From Melioribacteraceae bacterium (GTDB taxonomy: Bacteria; Bacteroidota; Ignavibacteria; Ignavibacteriales; Melioribacteraceae), in contig JAFGMI010000036.1 in the NCBI GenBank assembly GCA_016927595.1, forward strand, positions 1-64,000: DNA of 64,000 bases, read 5' to 3'. How positions within the stretch are numbered: position 1 is the first letter of the stretch; each line of letters starts with the position of its first letter. Under the pieces are notes generated by a model. It was not told where the DNA came from. It did no database searches and saw only the letters and a list, made by a program, of their open reading frames with translations. Both the position numbers and the translations under genes were made by a program. Positions 35,354-45,335 of the stretch are shown here, in pieces.

Positions 35354-38300
35354 ATGATTGGGGTAAAATTGAAAAAAATCCGGATTTTAATAAATTTTCT
35401 GTTATTATCGCTTATTTTCTCTTCCTGCAGTCTTTATGATTCAATAACTAAAAATGAAAATACCAGCCAGAGCGACAGTTTAATTACTGTTAATACGGTA
35501 ACTGTTGTAAATGAACTTTTAGAGGAAGCCCGTCTCGAATACATTGATGCTTTGGCTAACCAGAATTTAGGCTATAGAGAAGCAGCAATTAATTCATATG
35601 AAAATGCAGTCGGAATTTTAACGAGGGTGAGTTATTTCCCCGGTATAAACGATTATCAGGCATACGTTGAACTTGAAACAGCTATTGTTGACGATTATAA
35701 GAATTTTATAGAAACACTTGATGAACTTCCACCGGGTATTTCAATGACCGGTTTCGACTCGTGGGTCAATAAAAATATAAATGAAATTGAATTCAAGGAT
35801 GAGGAAGAAAAGATCGATACTACACCGGAAGATATAATCATTGTTGGCGATTTTCCTCTTGAAGTTAATAGTTATGTAGAAAAATATATTGAGTACTTTA
35901 CCGGACGCGGCAGAGAATATATGGGGACATGGTTAAGCCGTTCGGGCAAGTATTTTCCGATGATGGGCAGAATATTCAATGATGAACAGGTGCCTCAGCA
36001 ACTGATTTTCCTCAGTATGCCGGAAAGCGGGCTCAATCCGCTTGCCCGCTCATGGGCTAGGGCAGTCGGGATGTGGCAGTTTGTAAGTTCTACAGCCAAA
36101 TTGTATGATCTGAAAATTGATTTTTATGTCGATGAAAGACGCGATCCGGAAAAGGCAACCAGAGCAGCAGCCCGTCATTTAAGGGATTTATATTATTCAT
36201 TAGGCGATTGGTATCTTGCTCTAGCTGCTTATAATTCCGGTGAAGGAAGAGTAAGAAGAGCAATCCGCCGTGCAGGTTCAACAAATTTCTGGGAGATTCG
36301 CAGGTTTCTGCCGCGCGAAACAAGAAATTATGTGCCACAATATATCGCGGTTTCTTTAATTTGCGCAGAACCCGATAAATATGGTTTTACCGATATCAAA
36401 TATCAAAAGCCGATCGAATATTCTTATTTTACTCTTAATGAGGCTGTTGATCTGCAGGTAATAGCTTCATGCGCCGGTGTTACGAAAGAAGTTATTCAGG
36501 AACTTAATCCCGAGCTGACTCAGCATCATACACCGCCAAATTATAACGGGGGATATCATCTTAAAATTCCGAAGGTAAGTGAAAGTGTATTTGCTGATAA
36601 TCTTAAACTTATTCCCGATGAAGCAAAGCTTCAGTACGTAATACATACTGTTAGAAGCGGCGAAACTCTCTCGCATATTGCTCTGAAATATAACGTCGGT
36701 TTAAGCCGGCTGTCAAAACTTAATAATCTGTCGGTGCGGTCTAATATCTATCCCAGGCAGCAACTAAAGATTCCGTTATCAAACGTAAAACCGACAGATT
36801 TTGCTATTAACACCGATCTAATGCCCGCGTTGGAAGATATTGAAAACGGCGATCAGAACGCACCGTATCAGATGCGGATTACTCAAAATGGTGATGAGAA
36901 TAAATTCAGAAATCTTTATGAGAAAGTGCTTAACGATTCAATCGATGTTGTTATAATTCCCGAGGGCTATGAGATTGTTGAATATACCGTTAGATCGAGA
37001 GATAATCTGATTGATATTGCCGATATGTTCAACGTAAGAGTATCCGATATCCGAAACTGGAATAACATTCCGTACACGTCAAATATTCATATTTCACAAA
37101 AACTAAGAATATACGTTCCGGAAGAGAAGAAGAATTACTATGCGTCCATCGACAGCCTTACCCGTGCACAGAAGCTTTCGGTAATTTACGGTAATTCCGG
37201 TGAAACATGGTTAAAGCACAAAATAAGAAGGGGAGAATCACTTTCAACTATTGCACACAGATACGGGGTACGTGTCAGTGACTTGAAGAGATGGAATAAT
37301 TTAAGGAATAACAGGATATATGCTGGTAAAGTTCTGCAGATAAATACAAATAAGTTTGCAAGTTCATTTGCAGAATCTGCTGCCGATAATACTGATGCAT
37401 CGTCGAATACAAAGTTATTAAAGTATAAAATAAGAAACGGTGATACTCTCAGTGAAATAGCAGAGCAATTTAAGGTGTCTACAGTTATGCTGAGAAAGTG
37501 GAACGATCTTCCAAACAACAGGATAATTGCGGGCAGAACCTTAAAAATTTACGGTACCCAACCAGATGCCGGTGAATCATCTGCGGATACCGGTATCTAT
37601 ATTGTGAAAAAAGGAGATACGCTCAGTGAGATCGCTTTGACGCATGGACTGACAATAGCACAGATTAAGGAATATAACGGTTTGGAGAATGATGAAATTT
37701 TTGCAGGGAAGAAACTTGCGTTGACAGGTTCACCCGATGTTCCTGAAAATAAAACAGCACAAAACGATAGCCCGGATAGTGCGATAGAAGATGAAGAAAC
37801 AAATGGCGAATCAAAAATAATGTATACGATTAAATCGGGCGATACTGTCAGCCAGATTGCCGAAGTTCACGGCGTAAGCAGCAGAGATATCATAAGATGG
37901 AATGATTTAGTAAATGAAAAAATAGTAGCCGGCAAGCAACTGATTATTTATCCAAGAATGGAAAAACAGACACAGCAATTCGCAGTTGAACAGGTTCCGG
38001 AAAATAAATCTCCGGTGGTGAAAAACACTGATGGTTCAATTACTTACAGCGTTAAAAACGGCGATACGCTTGGACACATTGCCGAAGCATTTAATATTCT
38101 TGCAAAGGATATCAGGAAATGGAATAATATAAAAGGCAGCAGGATATTTCCGGGCGATAGACTTAAAATTTATCCGGGTGCAGATAAAACCGATACAGAA
38201 ATTGCCAGCGTTAGTGACATATCAACCGGAGGAGTAAAATTACATAAAGTAAAAGAGGGCGAATCGCTCTGGATCATAGCAAAAAATTATAATGTAACTG

Positions 38301-38377
38301 TTGCCGATATTATCGAATGGAATTCGCTTCAGGATGATAAGATCAGGGTCGGATGGGACCTAAAGATTTTGAATTAG
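35354..38377 (+). CDS. Membrane-bound lytic transglycosylase (MltD-like) with eight LysM repeats
   Basis: The 1007-residue lipoprotein begins with a hydrophobic signal and a lipobox ending in SSC. ATG at 35354 is used; a TTG at 35369 preceded by GGGG gives a more standard signal peptide and may be the real start. Residues ~185-330 form the soluble-lytic-transglycosylase domain, with catalytic Glu in [13 protein letters not shown] and the family motif [17 protein letters not shown]. The next half contains eight LysM modules of ~45 residues, each with GDTLSEIA and WN, separated by linkers; LysM binds peptidoglycan. The enzyme cleaves the glycan chain to 1,6-anhydro muropeptides in wall remodelling. 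MltD of other bacteria has two to three LysM, so the multiplication is unusual. Confidence 0.95.
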
Positions 38378-38412
38378 TTCTTTTATTAATTACTTTTACA
38401 TCAGATAAAAAA

Positions 38413-38488
38413 GCTGTTAGGGGTGTCCTATACGGGCTGAGAATATACCCTTGAACCTGATCTGGATAATGCCAGCGTAGGAAAACGG
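38413..38488 (+). ncRNA. TPP riboswitch (THI element) aptamer
   Basis: The conserved core is present in order: GGGGTGTCC, CTGAGA at 38437-38442, ACCCTTGAACCTGATCTGG, GATAATGCCAG and GCGTAG at 38475-38480. The closing stem P1 is CTGTT (38414-38418) with AACGG (38484-38488). The aptamer binds thiamine pyrophosphate. It lies 74-149 bases before the TonB-dependent receptor start and controls the three-gene unit that follows. Confidence 0.95.
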
Positions 38489-38507
38489 GAAGTGTTAAAA
38501 GTTTCCG

Positions 38508-38532
38508 AGCCGTTTTCCAGAACGGCTTTTTT
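38508..38532 (+). terminator. Riboswitch-controlled terminator
   Basis: AGCCGTT and AACGGCT pair over seven bases around TTCCAG and are followed by six T. CCGTTTTC at 38510-38517, which includes the terminator stem, is also fully complementary to GAAAACGG at 38481-38488, the P1 3' strand. TPP binding should hold GAAAACGG in P1 and allow the terminator; without TPP the antiterminator pair forms. Confidence 0.9.
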
Positions 38533-38561
38533 ATTTCTCAGACAAAATAAGGAGAAATAAA

Positions 38562-41033
38562 ATGAAACATTTAATACTTTTTTGTTTACTTCTGTCTGCC
38601 ACATCTGTTATACCGCAGAAAAAAACTATCAGCGGAATAGTTACTAACGAAAAAGGTACTCCGCTGCAATTAGCCAATGTAATTTTACTTGGGACTGATC
38701 TTGGTACGGTTACGGATTCCGAAGGGAGTTTTGAGCTATCGGGAAAATTTGAATCCGTAGGGAAACTGAGAGTCAGTTACATCGGTTATGAACCGGTTGA
38801 AATGGAAGTAATTGATTTCTACAACCAAAGTAATATTATAATCGTATTGAAACGAAAAGTACTCACAAGCCAGACAGTTCTCGTCAAAGGAGTTATTGGC
38901 GAAGTAGGCATCTCGCCGTTGACATTTTCGAAAGTTAGCAGGGATGATATAGAGAAAGGTTATGTAAATCAGGATATACCGGAATTACTCAGCTATCTGC
39001 CCTCTACTACTTTTTATTCGGAAGGCGGTGGTAATATAGGATATAATTACTTGAGTATAAGGGGATTCGACCAGAGACGGATTTCGGTTTCGATAAACGG
39101 GATACCCCAGAACGATCCGGAAGACCACAATGTTTACTGGGTGGATTTCCCGGATCTGATTGCCAGTACTGAAATGATTCAGGTTCAGCGCGGTGCCGGT
39201 TCGGGAGTGATTGGCTACCCGGCGGTTGGCGGCTCAATCAATATTATCACTTCTCCTTTTTCAGATAAATCAAGATTCGAACTGGATGTAAAAACAGGCA
39301 GTTACAATACCAGGAAATACACGGTTTCTTTCGCCAGCGGTTTGATTAATAACAAATATTCTATTTATGCGAAACTCGGACATCTGCTTAGTGACGGCTA
39401 CAAGGAAAATAACTGGGTCGATTTTAAGTCGTACCACTTTTCAGCTGTTCGTTATGATGAAAATTTTACAACTCAGATAAATTTATTCGGTGGTCCGATA
39501 GCCGACGGATTGACATATACGGGTATCGCAAAGTTTGCAGTAAAAGATAAAGAGCTCAGAAGAAAAAATTATTCCTACTGGGAAGCCGATGAATCAGGTT
39601 ATACTTATACACTTGAGCGACGGAAGGATGAGATTGAAAATTTCTCACAACCTCATTATGAATTACTTAACGAAATTAAACTTAGTGATGATATTCTCCT
39701 TAACTCCGCACTTTTTCTCGTCTCGGGGCAGGGGTTTTTCGATTACGACGGTTCATGGAGTATTTATTATGATGATTACTTCAGATTGGAATCAAATGGT
39801 TTTGATCCCGGCAAAGTTCCCGAAAATGCACTTATTCGTGCAAAGGTTGAGAATACTCAATGGGGCTGGATTCCGAGAATGAGTATAAATCATAATAGAG
39901 GCACTTTAATTCTCGGAGCAGAAATCCGTAAGCATAAATCACTACACTGGGGAAGTATAAATTATGCCGAGAACCTTCCTGCAGGTGTAACAAAAGACTA
40001 CAGATACTATCAGTATAATGGTGCAAAAGATATTTTTAATTTTTACGCGCATGAGAAATATCGTATAACTGATAACATCAATTTACTTGCCGAACTTCAA
40101 GTTGCATATCATGAATACGCCGTCGAAAATGAAAAATATCTGAATAATGAATTCAGCATTAGCAACACATTCTTAAATCCAAGGTTTGGCATTAATTACG
40201 TAATTACAGCCGGCATCAATGGATTTTTTTCTTTTGCCAGAGTATCCAGAGAACCCCGCCTGAAAACATACTATGATGCTGCGGAATCAAGCGCGGGCGA
40301 ATTACCGATGTTTGAACTGAATTCCGACGGCAGTTATGATTTCGACAAACCTCTTGTTGAACCCGAAACCATGAACAGTTTCGAACTCGGGTTTAATTAT
40401 ACAGGCGGTGCATCATCATTATCGTTAAATAGTTACCTGATGCTGTTTGACAATGAAATAGTAAAGCAGGGACAGGTTGACCGTTTCGGGCAGCCGATAA
40501 CAGGTAACGTTGAGAGAACGGTGCATACGGGTATTGAACTTTCGGCGGTTTCAAGAATTAATAGTCATTCCGATCTCAGAATTAACGGGTCCTTCAGCCA
40601 AAACTATATCAGCAAAGGAAGGTATTACATCAGTGAAAACGAATACATTAACCTCGATGGAAACAGAATCAGCGGTTTTCCGGAACTGACTTTTAATGCG
40701 ATTGTGAATTATAGATTCAATGGATTATTCCTTCAACTTACGGCTAAATATGTCGGGGAGTTTTATTCTGATAATTATGATAAGAAACTTACTGATTACC
40801 TTAATGCATTTCCCGGATTCGTGGATTACAGCGACAATATTGTCGAATCATACTTTGTTTCAAATTTATTAGCAAGCTATGAATTAGAACTTGATCCTTA
40901 CTTTAGTAAATTAAAAATATTTCTGCAGGTGAATAACATATTTGATAAGTTGTACGCTGCTTATGCGGTGGGAAAAGAATTTTATCCTGCTGCCGAAAGA
41001 AATTTTATAACAGGGATAATGCTTGGTTTGTGA
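38562..41033 (+). CDS. TonB-dependent outer-membrane receptor, predicted thiamine/TPP uptake
   Basis: The 823-residue receptor has a signal peptide (MKHLILFCLLLSATSVIPQ), an N-terminal carboxypeptidase-regulatory-like domain (KTISGIVTNEKGTPLQLANV, residues ~20-100), a plug with LSIRGFDQRRISVSINGIP and QVQRGAGSGVIGYPAVGGSINI, and a 22-strand-type barrel to the C-terminus. AAGGAG precedes the ATG. Its control by a TPP riboswitch and its position before thiamine pyrophosphokinase strongly suggest the ligand is thiamine, its phosphates or a precursor; energy comes from TonB-ExbBD elsewhere. Confidence 0.93.
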   Translation: MKHLILFCLLLSATSVIPQKKTISGIVTNEKGTPLQLANVILLGTDLGTVTDSEGSFELSGKFESVGKLRVSYIGYEPVEMEVIDFYNQSNIIIVLKRKVLTSQTVLVKGVIGEVGISPLTFSKVSRDDIEKGYVNQDIPELLSYLPSTTFYSEGGGNIGYNYLSIRGFDQRRISVSINGIPQNDPEDHNVYWVDFPDLIASTEMIQVQRGAGSGVIGYPAVGGSINIITSPFSDKSRFELDVKTGSYNTRKYTVSFASGLINNKYSIYAKLGHLLSDGYKENNWVDFKSYHFSAVRYDENFTTQINLFGGPIADGLTYTGIAKFAVKDKELRRKNYSYWEADESGYTYTLERRKDEIENFSQPHYELLNEIKLSDDILLNSALFLVSGQGFFDYDGSWSIYYDDYFRLESNGFDPGKVPENALIRAKVENTQWGWIPRMSINHNRGTLILGAEIRKHKSLHWGSINYAENLPAGVTKDYRYYQYNGAKDIFNFYAHEKYRITDNINLLAELQVAYHEYAVENEKYLNNEFSISNTFLNPRFGINYVITAGINGFFSFARVSREPRLKTYYDAAESSAGELPMFELNSDGSYDFDKPLVEPETMNSFELGFNYTGGASSLSLNSYLMLFDNEIVKQGQVDRFGQPITGNVERTVHTGIELSAVSRINSHSDLRINGSFSQNYISKGRYYISENEYINLDGNRISGFPELTFNAIVNYRFNGLFLQLTAKYVGEFYSDNYDKKLTDYLNAFPGFVDYSDNIVESYFVSNLLASYELELDPYFSKLKIFLQVNNIFDKLYAAYAVGKEFYPAAERNFITGIMLGL

Positions 41034-41034
41034 C

Positions 41035-41700
41035 ATGCCGGGGAAAGCAATCATAATCGGAAACGGTAAAATACCTCCGAGAGGTTATTTGGAATATTTG
41101 CAAACCAAAGGTTTTAATGATATCATTTGCGCGGATGGCGGAGCAGAGCACGCCAGGAAATTAAATCTTATTCCCTCCGTCATTATAGGCGATCTGGATT
41201 CTGTAAAAAGTGAGACTTTAGAATACTACAAACCCTCTGTCAGGATAATTTATTATCAAAGGCAGAATGATACTGATATTGAAAAAAGTATCAAATACGC
41301 TGTATCAAGAAAGTATAGCGAAATTGTATTATGCGCTGTTACCGGCAACAGACTCGATCATTCATTTTGTAATATCGGAGTAATGTTAAAATTTTCCGAC
41401 CGGATAAAAATATCTATTCTTCACGATGATTCAATAATGTACGTCATAAGTGGAGTAAATAAGATCAAAACGCATAAAGGCGAAACAATATCGGTTTATG
41501 GTATTGATGGTAAAACTAAATTCACCTCCAAAGGTCTGAAATATAAACTGGGAAAGGTTAGTCTTCCTTTCGGTGTGAAAGAAAGTACATCCAACAAAGC
41601 CGAATCAGGACAGGTGGAAATTATCGTAACAGGAGGGAAAGGTATAATTGTACGTGAAAGTAAGATAGTTAAAAAGTATGGTCTCCTTTTCTACTGTTGA
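41035..41700 (+). CDS. Thiamine pyrophosphokinase
   Basis: Start at ATG 41035, one base after the receptor stop (MPGKAIIIGNGKIPPRG). The 221-residue enzyme converts thiamine to TPP with ATP. Typical motifs are CADGGAEHA, IIGDLDSV, QNDTDIEKS and GNRLDHSFCN, which bind ATP/magnesium and thiamine. Salvage through this route needs no de novo thiamine synthesis. The 3' end overlaps the transporter start by 23 bases. Confidence 0.95.
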   Translation: MPGKAIIIGNGKIPPRGYLEYLQTKGFNDIICADGGAEHARKLNLIPSVIIGDLDSVKSETLEYYKPSVRIIYYQRQNDTDIEKSIKYAVSRKYSEIVLCAVTGNRLDHSFCNIGVMLKFSDRIKISILHDDSIMYVISGVNKIKTHKGETISVYGIDGKTKFTSKGLKYKLGKVSLPFGVKESTSNKAESGQVEIIVTGGKGIIVRESKIVKKYGLLFYC

Positions 41701-43078
41701 TGTAATAATTATACTGATCTTTTTTCTTTCACTGTTGATAATTGGCTTTATTCCAAATTATAACAGGAAGGACTCGAAAGATGCATTCCTCTTGTCCGGA
41801 AGGAATGTCGGTATTGTTTTATTTGTTTTGACAAATGTTGCAACATGGTACGGAGGAATTCTCGGTGTTGGAGAGTTTACATATAAATATGGATTGCTAA
41901 GCTGGTTTACCCAGGGTTTGCCTTATTATATCTTCGCTTTATTTTTTGCTTTTCTTTTAGCTCCCAAAATAAGGGAATCATCTCTTTATACAATTCCGGA
42001 CAAACTGGAATTAACATACGGAAAGGGTGTTGGACTTGCGACCTCAGTGCTAATTTATTTACTGGTGTCGCCTGCAGCTTATATTTTAATGTTAGGAAAT
42101 ATGATCTCGTTAATATTAGGGATAAGTTTTACATCTTCTTTATTTATTGGTTTTATCGTTTCCGTAATTTATTTATTCAAAGGCGGATATAAATCAGATT
42201 TGTATACTGATGCCTTTCAGTTTTTTATTATGTTCGGAGGATTTATAATTCTGTTCGTTTTTTTACTGACGGATCTCGGCGGTGTTGATTTTCTTCAGAA
42301 AAATTTACCCGAATCACATTTAAGTTTTACAGGGAATGCATCGGTAACTTATATAATAGTCTGGTTTCTGGTAGCACTATGGACTTTTACCGATCCCGGT
42401 TTTCACCAGCGTTGCTATGCTGCCAGAACTCCCAAAGTTGCCAAATACGGCATTCTGATCTCGATTATATTCTGGATGCTCTTCGATTTTTTAACGACCG
42501 CCACCGGTCTGTATTCCCGGGCGGTGTTGCCCGAATCATCCAATGCTGTGATGGCATTTCCGTTACTCGCCGAGAGTGTATTACCTCCTGGATTGAAAGG
42601 TGTATTTTATGCCGCCTTATTTGCGACCATAATTTCGACTTTGAACAGTTATTTTTTCCTTAGCGCAACTACATTCAGCAAAGATTTAATAAGTAAAAAT
42701 TTTAATGTCGATAGTAGCAAACTTGTTAAATACACGAGAGTAGGTCTTGCTTTTACAGGTATTATAGGTATTACACTTGCACTTTATCTTCAGTCTGTTA
42801 TAGAAATATGGTATACCATTGGCAGTATCTGCATACCGGGATTGATACTTTTAATAATAAGTGCTTATTATGAAAAATTCAGGATAAGCAGTAAAGCCGC
42901 GCTTATAGAGGTTATATTTTCAGTAGTAGTAAGTGTTTTATGGATGATTATACGCACTGAACTCACCAGAGGCAGCTTACTTTTTGAAATCGAGCCGATG
43001 ATCCTCGGGCTTGTAACCGCTTTAATTATTCATACTTACGGTTTGTTAAAAAGAAGAAAGCGGCTACTTATGAAATAA
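41678..43078 (+). CDS. Sodium:solute symporter family protein, candidate thiamine transporter
   Basis: The 466-residue protein has about 12-13 hydrophobic helices and SSS-family features: [26 protein letters not shown] (core [19 protein letters not shown]), [16 protein letters not shown] and a Na-binding-like [20 protein letters not shown] region. It begins inside the thiamine pyrophosphokinase gene, so the two are coupled. SSS proteins use the sodium gradient to import small solutes. In a TPP-riboswitch unit after an outer-membrane receptor and a TPP-forming kinase, thiamine (or its precursor) is the best substrate guess. I recall that an SSS-family transporter named ThiV has been proposed from genome comparison in other phyla; I cannot check it. 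Its 3' end overlaps the convergent decarboxylase by 11 bases. Confidence 0.9.
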
Positions 43079-43613
43079 GTATAGCCGCAGCAACAACAGT
43101 TGTCCACAATCCGCTTTTATCACCTTGCGCAGATTGAGTATTGTTGAAACTTCTAACGATTTTACCGGACATTTTATAAACCTGTTCTCTCTCGTTCCAT
43201 GCCCGGTCGGGATCAAAATCAATTCCCAGCGTGGTTGCAAGCATCGTAGCTGCCAAATCTTCGGCATATTCGCCGGCAACATTTGCTTTTTCACCGAAAG
43301 GATGATGCTCGGAGAGGTATCCGTACATTTTCTTGTCGGCAGGCAGTGCAACTCCTATAGATGCAGCAATTAATCGGTTGGGTTCGTTTGTTGCGTTTCG
43401 GGCTATTACGGTATGTACTATTTGTCCTGGCTTTAAAAATTTTAATCCTTCTTCTACACTTATAATTTTGCAACCGACAGGATAAATGCTGCTTACGCTT
43501 ACAAGATTGTATTTTTCGATTCGTGCATTCCGAAGTGCAGATTCAAAGGAAGCAAGATATTCTCTGTGCTTTCCAACACCTTTTGTAAAGAAGATTTTTG
43601 TCGGTACGTACAA
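43068..43613 (-). CDS. Pyruvoyl-dependent arginine decarboxylase
   Basis: The 181-residue proenzyme should self-cleave at a Ser in the [10 protein letters not shown] segment (about residue 42), making a beta chain and a pyruvoyl alpha chain. The family decarboxylates arginine to agmatine for polyamine synthesis or acid resistance. The C-terminal [22 protein letters not shown] and [20 protein letters not shown] (seen in parts) are PvlArgDC hallmarks. It lies 17 bases downstream of tyrS on the same strand. This type is frequent in archaea, Chlamydia and some Bacteroidota/Chlorobiota. Confidence 0.93.
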
Positions 43614-43630
43614 TTTACACCCTCCTTATT

Positions 43631-44863
43631 TTAATTCGCCGATAATTTAATAAATTTCCTTTTGCCAACCTTAAGAATTTTTTCATGCTCAAAGGTGACT
43701 ATATATTTTATATCATCTACTTTTTTACCGTCAATTGAAACGCCTCCCTGTTGAACCAGTCTTCTTGCCTCGCCGTTTGATGCAGCAAAATTAACTGCTA
43801 CTATCAAATCGAGCAGACCTATTTCCGATGTCCCTGAATCAGGTTTATATTCAGGTATGTCCTGCGGTATGCCCTTATCTTTAAAAATATTATCGAATTC
43901 CTCTTCGGCTCTTAAAGCATCTGCGGCTGAATGATACATTTCAACGATTTTGCGGGCAAGTTGCCGCTTAATGTCTCTCGGATTAATACCGGAATTATCG
44001 AGTGATTTTTTGATCTCAATAAGTTCTTCGTTTGAAACATCGGTAGCCAGCTCATAATAATTATAAATTATATCGTCGGGTATAGATAATGTACGTCCGT
44101 ACATTTCATTCGGATCATCATTAATTCCAATATAGTTGTCGTACGATTTACTCATTTTCTCTTTACCGTCTGTACCAACAAGAAGCGGCATCGTTAATAT
44201 CACCTGAGGCAACTGACCGTGTTCCCTCTGAATGTCTCTTCCGACAAGAAGGTTGAATTTCTGATCAGTACCGCCCAACTCAACGTCGCTTTTAATTGAT
44301 ACCGAATCCATTGCCTGTGCGAGCGGGTAAAGAATTTCGTGCATGGATATTGGTATTCCGCCGTTAAACCTTTTTGTAAAATCATCTCTTTCCAGCATTC
44401 TGGCAACGGTGTATTTAGATGAAAGTTTTATAACGTCGCCAAAATTCATCCTGCCGAGCCATTCAGAGTTCTTAACAATTTTTGTTTTTTCTTTATCCAG
44501 TATTTTCGATGCCTGCTCGAAGTAAGTTTTTGCATTCATATCTATTTCTCCGGGAGAAAGAGGCGGACGGGTTGAATTCCTTCCTGACGGGTCACCGATC
44601 AGACTTGTAAAGTCGCCTATGATCAGAATTGCCTGATGTCCGCATCGTTGAAACTGAGCTAGTTTTCTGAGTACTACCGAATGACCGAGATGCAGATCAG
44701 GTCTGGTTGGATCGCATCCGAGTTTTATGTTTAATGGTTTATTGTTTTTGATCGAATATTCTAGTTTCTGAACCAGTTCATCCTCGGGTATAATTTCAAC
44801 AGCCCCTCTTTTGTAGATATCCATCTGTTCATTAATATCTGGGAATATTTTTTTACCGCTCAA
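43631..44863 (-). CDS. tyrS: Tyrosyl-tRNA synthetase
   Basis: The 410-residue class I enzyme charges tRNA-Tyr. The HIGH motif appears as HLGHS, followed by VVLRKLAQFQ; the KMSKS motif is EKMSKSYDN. A C-terminal S4 RNA-binding domain (~345-405, with ARRLVQQGGVSIDGKKV) anchors the tRNA. The length and the KMSKS neighbourhood match the TyrZ-like bacterial branch. First of the pair with the decarboxylase, 16 bases from smpB. Confidence 0.97.
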   Translation of the reverse strand: MSGKKIFPDINEQMDIYKRGAVEIIPEDELVQKLEYSIKNNKPLNIKLGCDPTRPDLHLGHSVVLRKLAQFQRCGHQAILIIGDFTSLIGDPSGRNSTRPPLSPGEIDMNAKTYFEQASKILDKEKTKIVKNSEWLGRMNFGDVIKLSSKYTVARMLERDDFTKRFNGGIPISMHEILYPLAQAMDSVSIKSDVELGGTDQKFNLLVGRDIQREHGQLPQVILTMPLLVGTDGKEKMSKSYDNYIGINDDPNEMYGRTLSIPDDIIYNYYELATDVSNEELIEIKKSLDNSGINPRDIKRQLARKIVEMYHSAADALRAEEEFDNIFKDKGIPQDIPEYKPDSGTSEIGLLDLIVAVNFAASNGEARRLVQQGGVSIDGKKVDDIKYIVTFEHEKILKVGKRKFIKLSAN

Positions 44864-44879
44864 TTAACTCTCCTTATTA

Positions 44880-45335
44880 CTATTTGATATTTCTTTCTAA
44901 CTCTCTTCTTATATCTTTTTTTGCAATGCTTTCCCTTTTATCGTAAGATTTTTTCCCTCTCGCCAAACCAAGTTCAAGTTTTACTTTACCCTGCTTAAAA
45001 TATAAACGGAGAGGAATCAGCGTGTAACCTTTTTCTTTAATTTTATTATCTAATTTCCTCAGCTCACTTTTTTTAAGCAGCAGCTTTCTTTTTCTTACAG
45101 GATCATGATTATAAATATTTCCCTGGTCGTATCTGCTGATATTAGCACCTATCAGCCAGGCTTCACCGTTCCGTATAAACGCGTAGCCGTCGGTCAGATT
45201 GGCTTTGTTTTGCCGAAGAGCCTTAACCTCGGTTCCCACCAGTGAAATGCCCGCTTCTATCCTTTGCTCAATATAATATTCATATTCAGCTTTTTTATTA
45301 ACGGTAATATTTTTTTCCTGCGCTTCCATTTTCAA
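44880..45335 (-). CDS. smpB: SsrA-binding protein SmpB
   Basis: SmpB binds tmRNA and delivers it to stalled ribosomes for trans-translation. The 151-residue protein shows NKKAEYEYYIEQRIEAGI, GTEVKALRQNKANLTDGYA (core GTEVKALRQ) and the Lys-rich C-terminal tail with GKKSYDKRESI, which becomes helical in the A site. First gene of the smpB-tyrS-decarboxylase unit. tmRNA itself is not in this window. Confidence 0.97.
   Translation of the reverse strand: MKMEAQEKNITVNKKAEYEYYIEQRIEAGISLVGTEVKALRQNKANLTDGYAFIRNGEAWLIGANISRYDQGNIYNHDPVRKRKLLLKKSELRKLDNKIKEKGYTLIPLRLYFKQGKVKLELGLARGKKSYDKRESIAKKDIRRELERNIK

Follow-up and report, generated by a model that had tools for sequence, protein, structure and literature searches.

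A riboswitch-headed operon of a Melioribacteraceae bacterium and the case for its SSS symporter as an inner-membrane thiamine importer

An operon in which a TPP riboswitch is followed by genes for a TonB-dependent receptor, a thiamine kinase and an SSS-family symporter raises the question of what the last of these proteins carries, and whether it serves as the inner-membrane importer, the role filled by PnuT in Bacteroides. The locus lies in the genome (G000) of a Melioribacteraceae bacterium, within an analysed stretch of 64,000 nucleotides hereafter termed the window. Taken together with its relatives and the remainder of the genome, it is very probably a thiamine-scavenging operon of a likely auxotroph, with the SSS symporter acting as the inner-membrane thiamine importer.

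The operon and its riboswitch

Searches with Rfam located a single TPP riboswitch aptamer (THI element, RF00059) in the window, at 38409–38500 on the forward strand (72.2 bits where the gathering score is 54.3; E = 2.8e-12; model positions 1–105); the first-pass annotation had started the unit at 38413, where the aptamer does indeed lie, but Rfam places its start 4 bases away, at 38409. The three genes downstream share its strand. The first (38562–41033) codes for an 823-residue TonB-dependent outer-membrane receptor with barrel (PF00593), Plug (PF07715) and CarbopepD_reg_2 (PF13715) domains, each above the Pfam cut-off; the second (41035–41700, with its ATG at 41035) for a 221-residue thiamine diphosphokinase (thiamine pyrophosphokinase) matching PF04263, PF04265 and TIGR01378 (142.8 bits, cut-off 76.4); and the third (41678–43078) for a 466-residue protein assigned to the SSS/SSF family by both PF00474 (110.4 bits, cut-off 22.8) and the SSS fold, and proposed from its gene context to be the inner-membrane thiamine importer. 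The Rfam, Pfam and TIGR01378 matches bear out the order of parts first described, and the coordinates do the same for its spacing: 1 base separates the receptor stop, which ends at 41033, from the kinase ATG, and the kinase and symporter genes overlap by 23 bases (41678–41700), an overlap found identically in a relative (L064). Because it recurs across the order Ignavibacteriales and beyond, this riboswitch, receptor, kinase and symporter arrangement is beyond chance.

Upstream of the unit, 35354–38377 of the window encodes a long protein that, judged by eye, combines a transglycosylase-like part with LysM-like repeats; its gene stops 31 bases short of the aptamer, and in many relatives a gene for a protein of about 900 residues precedes the uptake unit. 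On its 3' side, at 43068–45335, stand converging genes for pyruvoyl-dependent arginine decarboxylase, tyrosyl-tRNA synthetase and SmpB (by eye); similar genes lie downstream of the unit in relatives, L064 and L066 among them.

A terminator scan placed an intrinsic-terminator-like hairpin with a T-rich tail, a candidate expression platform, at 38507–38528 on the forward strand, and the predicted RNA fold that includes this hairpin was stabler than its shuffles (z = −3.71). A candidate antiterminator strand at 38480–38488 (also forward), overlapping the 3' strand of P1, is the exact complement of 38510–38518, a segment in and beside the 5' arm of the terminator. Since terminator-like sites in the region were no more numerous than in shuffled sequence (3 observed, 3.8 expected), the argument for a terminator is one of placement and recurrence. 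The scan covered 29 riboswitch loci out of the 59 matches recorded in the order sample of 58 genomes; at one of them, L051, the riboswitch stands before a salvage operon rather than a receptor, kinase and symporter unit. A terminator of this kind was present at 21 loci and lacking at 8, and a P1 segment pairing with the terminator arm extended over at least 5 nt in 20 of the 21 and at least 6 nt in 17, the matches at single loci often lying within the shuffle range and the loci being related, with repetition as the argument.

From this layout we infer that TPP attenuates transcription of the operon. With TPP plentiful, the aptamer would be bound, P1 would form, the terminator at 38507–38528 could form and transcription would stop; with TPP scarce, 38480–38488 would pair with 38510–38518 and the operon would be read.

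The host genome and its relatives

The host assembly (3.85 Mb, 59 contigs, 99.8% complete) holds one TPP riboswitch, at this operon only, and seven matches to the SSS family (PF00474), of which only the symporter at 41678–43078 stands at a riboswitch. No match to the PnuC/PnuT family (PF04973), no ThiC and no ThiB was found in the genome (as a control, the ThiB search was run on 14 control genomes and exceeded its cut-off in one), and the ThiE family (PF02581) gave one partial match of 20 bits, below the cut-off of 27. A riboswitch-controlled PnuT or ThiBPQ elsewhere in the genome would have spoken against the first-pass reading; searches gave no PnuC-family protein, no ThiB and no second TPP riboswitch. 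With the PnuC family and ThiB as the importer families looked for, the symporter is the sole inner-membrane importer candidate found in the genome. Because neither ThiC nor a ThiE-family match above cut-off was found, the organism would, as far as tested (the TMP synthase search covering the ThiE family), be without thiamine synthesis from HMP; it is likely a thiamine auxotroph, whose kinase would, again as far as tested, be able to use imported thiamine.

An order sample of 58 genomes (same genus, family and order, G000 included) yielded a symporter orthologue in 53, at 47–64% identity to the query (the query itself aside) as against about 30% or less for other SSS proteins among the matches listed. 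Forty-eight of the 53 follow a same-strand TPP riboswitch at a distance of 3096–3484 nt, and five have no upstream riboswitch on their contig, four of these (G027, G032, G036, G043) standing at contig ends. The fifth, G023, disproves the notion that all unlinked cases in the order are contig breaks: its riboswitch and receptor occupy one contig and its kinase and symporter another (L271, L272), and the latter carries 5.6 kb of other upstream sequence with no riboswitch and no contig break beside the symporter, an arrangement that is either a real split or a misassembly. A kinase gene was present at 29 of the 30 order loci opened, the exception (L009, in G032) ending 149 bases upstream of the symporter. 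A further notion, that the symporter is missing from some relatives and hence dispensable, was rejected since contig ends explain three of the five genomes lacking an orthologue: there the receptor gene lies 0 (G013), 131 (G017) or about 490 bases (G028) from the contig end, with the kinase start at the very end of the G028 contig. G021 (68% complete) and G029 showed neither riboswitch nor orthologue.

TPP riboswitches were recorded in 55 of the 58 genomes, ThiC in 2 and the ThiE family above cut-off in 4 (full length in G001, G008 and G053, partial in G046); ThiB was found in none, and nor was PnuC above its cut-off, one genome (G041) having a match below it. Second riboswitches had been considered as possible drivers of PnuT, an idea discarded when those of G008 and G053 proved to head ThiC operons and that of G001 a ThiM-ThiE-ThiL-like salvage operon; the second riboswitch of G054 lies at a contig end. 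The two ThiC synthesis operons (L083/L084) stand alongside the uptake unit, and ThiC and symporter coexist in these two genomes, which belong to the 58 and lie outside the phylum sample described below. Named relatives comprised Melioribacteraceae, other Ignavibacteriae and Candidatus Chrysopegis kryptomonas, the last having the same order of parts as the G000 unit; loss of thiamine synthesis in Kryptonia genomes is reported in PMC4737851. Two of ten named loci (L071, L073) carry a kinase gene, a single peptidase-like gene and the symporter gene; no riboswitch or receptor was seen there, and a search with the TPP model used for the phylum was negative.

Across 395 sampled genomes of the phylum Bacteroidota, a symporter homologue (E of 1e-60 or better) was present in 112, 40 of them in the order. 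Outside the order all 73 places, from 72 genomes (G061 being in two pieces), were opened. In 53 of the 72 genomes the symporter has a same-strand kinase gene no more than 1 kb away, and in 52 of those 53 no more than 300 bases away; together with the 48 riboswitch-linked orthologues of the order, this answers in the affirmative the question put by the first-pass reading, whether homologues lie beside TPP riboswitches or thiamine genes. The TPP model detected a riboswitch at 20 of the 73 places (a further hit, at E = 4.6, was taken as chance), and the 52 genomes in which no riboswitch is linked to the symporter each carry one elsewhere. Where a kinase-symporter pair had no local riboswitch, 15 of 32 other genomes were opened, and all 15 show a receptor homologue behind a riboswitch; in G366 these lie ahead of that very operon, three salvage genes intervening. 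A riboswitch-controlled receptor, a kinase and a symporter are thus kept per genome even where the operon is split. Additional riboswitches, in some of these genomes, stand ahead of thiD, tenA, ThiM or ThiE-like genes (names assigned partly by eye). In G322, which has the kinase-symporter pair too, one place (L236) shows thiD-tenA-like genes and a YkoEDC-like transporter, so named by eye, behind a TPP riboswitch.

The other 19 of these 72 genomes have the symporter apart from both kinase and riboswitch and form one clade with a support of 100. Each of the 19 holds a kinase gene and one TPP riboswitch at sites away from the symporter, the riboswitch in every case preceding a receptor homologue, as it does in G219; six of the receptors score weakly against the unit receptor profile (172–233 bits as against about 790–890 for most others), and that of L209 is split over two frames. 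Neither PnuC nor ThiC was found in any of the 19. Residues E66, D239, R245 and D270 are kept throughout the clade, W235 is replaced by Gln in all 19 and W378 by Ile in 14, and the cargo of these symporters may have shifted. A pgsA-like gene (by eye) often adjoins them (L124, L125, L139, L143, L159, L173, L176, L183).

The symporter and its cargo

Although the symporter shares a superfamily with PanF, the Na+/pantothenate symporter, NCBIfam holds no dedicated family for it: superfamily and PanF/PutP-type models match, all below their cut-offs, the best equivalog, PanF TIGR02119, giving 97.3 bits against 328.05, and a tree built by a quick method places PanF and PutP of E. coli well outside its clade. 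The rows of the order in that tree are labelled riboswitch-linked by default, the count of 65 under that label being no measurement, and the label 'none' is measured; L069, on a short contig, and some of the unlinked order cases described above bear the default label all the same, and L018 and L082 are an identical protein. Five AlphaFold models were obtained, the best with a pLDDT of 85 and a pTM of 0.85 and the others with pLDDT values of 82, 63, 50 and 48. The closest solved fold by Z was CHT1 (41.8 over 460 residues, 3.3 Å), a carrier of the cation choline, followed by SGLT1 (34.1) and SiaT (34.0), the Foldseek order differing in that SGLT2 ranked first, above CHT1. The fold is common over nearly the whole protein but identity to the solved CHT1, SGLT and SiaT structures is about 18%, and fold does not tell the cargo.

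Residues S320 and T321 align with the SS of SGLT1, a Ser/Thr pair on a core helix which we take to be the Na2-site motif of solved SSS structures. The S320 hydroxyl is retained in 98 of 100 kinase-linked homologues and, among 20, at least 90% keep that of T321; transport is probably Na+-coupled. E66, W229, D239, R245, D270 and W378 are invariant in the 100 kinase-linked rows, some of which are near-identical.

A division of labour can be proposed on these grounds. The receptor would draw on TonB energy to bring scarce thiamine through the outer membrane, the symporter would take it on through the inner membrane, probably coupled to Na+, and the kinase would convert it to TPP and hence trap it, the symporter taking the position that PnuT has in Bacteroides. 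As with the riboswitch, we infer the substrate, the sodium coupling and the inward direction of transport from sequence.

The distribution of the PnuC family (PF04973) is consistent with this proposal. Above cut-off it occurs in 157 of the 395 genomes and the symporter in 112, yet no genome has both, the nearest approach being the PnuC match of 23.6 bits, below cut-off, in G041. ThiC, present in 138, never accompanies the symporter in this sample and accompanies PnuC in 35 genomes. Fisher's test, treating genomes as independent and ignoring ancestry, gave 3.5e-31 for symporter and PnuC and 1.7e-26 for symporter and ThiC. The 257 genomes lacking ThiC divide into 112 with the symporter, 122 with PnuC and 23 with neither, the last indicating that other thiamine routes exist. 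Three families (f6, f10, f32) include both symporter and PnuC-family proteins, in different genomes: in f10, where G164, G237 and G278 carry the symporter, two loci (L245, L247) have riboswitch, receptor, kinase and PnuC, with PnuC in the symporter slot. Of 20 PnuC places opened, 2 lie in a thiamine operon, 5 beside an opposite-strand kinase (L254, L257–L260) and 13 without kinase or receptor. The PF04973 family also includes nicotinamide riboside carriers, and because those 13 places show no gene of the unit, many of the counted PnuC proteins, those of f6 included, may be such carriers. The earlier reading of the SSS protein as occupant of the importer slot, and so as a candidate importer, draws support from gene context, from this exclusion and from the exchange at L245 and L247.

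That reading left the cargo as thiamine or a precursor. Import of a precursor (HMP or another pyrimidine) in place of thiamine would follow the proposal made for ThiV, a TPP-regulated SSS protein of SAR11 regarded as an HMP carrier (PMC11452348), but we consider it unlikely: HMP would be useful only with a TMP synthase, and PF02581 exceeds its cut-off in few genomes of the order, G000 not among them; the enzyme of the operon is a thiamine kinase; and PnuC occupies the symporter slot elsewhere. Because ThiC and a real ThiE were not found, thiamine is likelier than a precursor, which refines the earlier wording. It is highly improbable that the symporter is a passenger carrying some other solute as a mere operon neighbour, as the many cargoes of the SSS family, the choline carrier as nearest fold by Z and the unlinked 19-genome clade, often beside a pgsA-like gene, might suggest, given its linkage to kinase outside the order and riboswitch within it, its absence from every genome of the 395 that has ThiC or a PnuC-family protein, and the want of another inner-membrane candidate in G000 among the families tested.

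The symporter as importer of thiamine itself leads to a broader proposition, for and against which we find the case evenly balanced: that these proteins constitute a previously unnamed, phylum-wide group which imports intact thiamine by Na+ coupling, differs from the HMP-carrying ThiV and stands in for PnuT slot for slot, with auxotrophs largely split between the two importers and none seen to have both. If true, the cargo of this sodium-driven importer would be thiamine itself, and PnuT versus symporter would form a natural experiment in the non-orthologous replacement of a vitamin importer. It would also supply a candidate B1 importer for auxotrophs that gene lists may score as importer-less; PMC10881298 reports clusters of Bacteroidota for which no B1 synthesis or transport system has been described.

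Comparison with known systems

Searches of the open-licence literature gave no account of an SSS, kinase and receptor unit in the phylum, nor of exclusion between such a symporter and PnuT. TPP-regulated SSS proteins, designated ThiV or SSSP, are described from SAR11, Methylobacillus, algae and others in PMC4260697, PMC11452348 and PMC2211319, the name ThiV going back to Rodionov 2002 (cited through PMC4260697), and ThiV figures among the B1 transporters listed in PMC6593275. Such proteins are mostly read as HMP carriers and are described alongside genes of HMP salvage or synthesis, thiE, thiG and tenA among them; for SAR11, whole-cell HMP uptake has a Km of 9.5 pM to 1.2 nM (PMC11452348). The present symporter is like them in its SSS family, its TPP riboswitch control and its proposed role as a thiamine or HMP carrier, but differs, by description, in its company of receptor and kinase, in a genome where neither ThiC nor ThiE was found. 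The ThiV signature published in PMC11452348, in SiaT numbering, is Tyr78, Asp139 and Phe254 followed by His or a polar residue, and by eye the conserved F242-H243 pair of the symporter may correspond to its last item. A ThiV reference was sought via plasmids, a search centred on another phylum and viral contigs, and none was found in these: the plasmid homologues (71 records) were all below 60% identity, at 21–35% in the 60 listed, five of their places held no thiamine genes, and the viral contigs contained no relative of the symporter.

The closest parallel to the unit as a whole is that of Bacteroides, in which OMthi, pnuT and tnr3 are under TPP riboswitches and loss of the receptor or of PnuT matters once synthesis is deleted too, B. 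thetaiotaomicron being able to synthesise thiamine (PMC5613172). The operon described here resembles it in having a TPP riboswitch, a TonB-dependent receptor, an inner-membrane importer and a TPP-forming step; unlike it, the proposed importer belongs to the SSS family and not to PF04973, the order is receptor, kinase, importer, and the genome has no found ThiC. Both TPP-regulated SSS proteins and the Bacteroides-type unit are known, and what would have been exchanged here is the importer.
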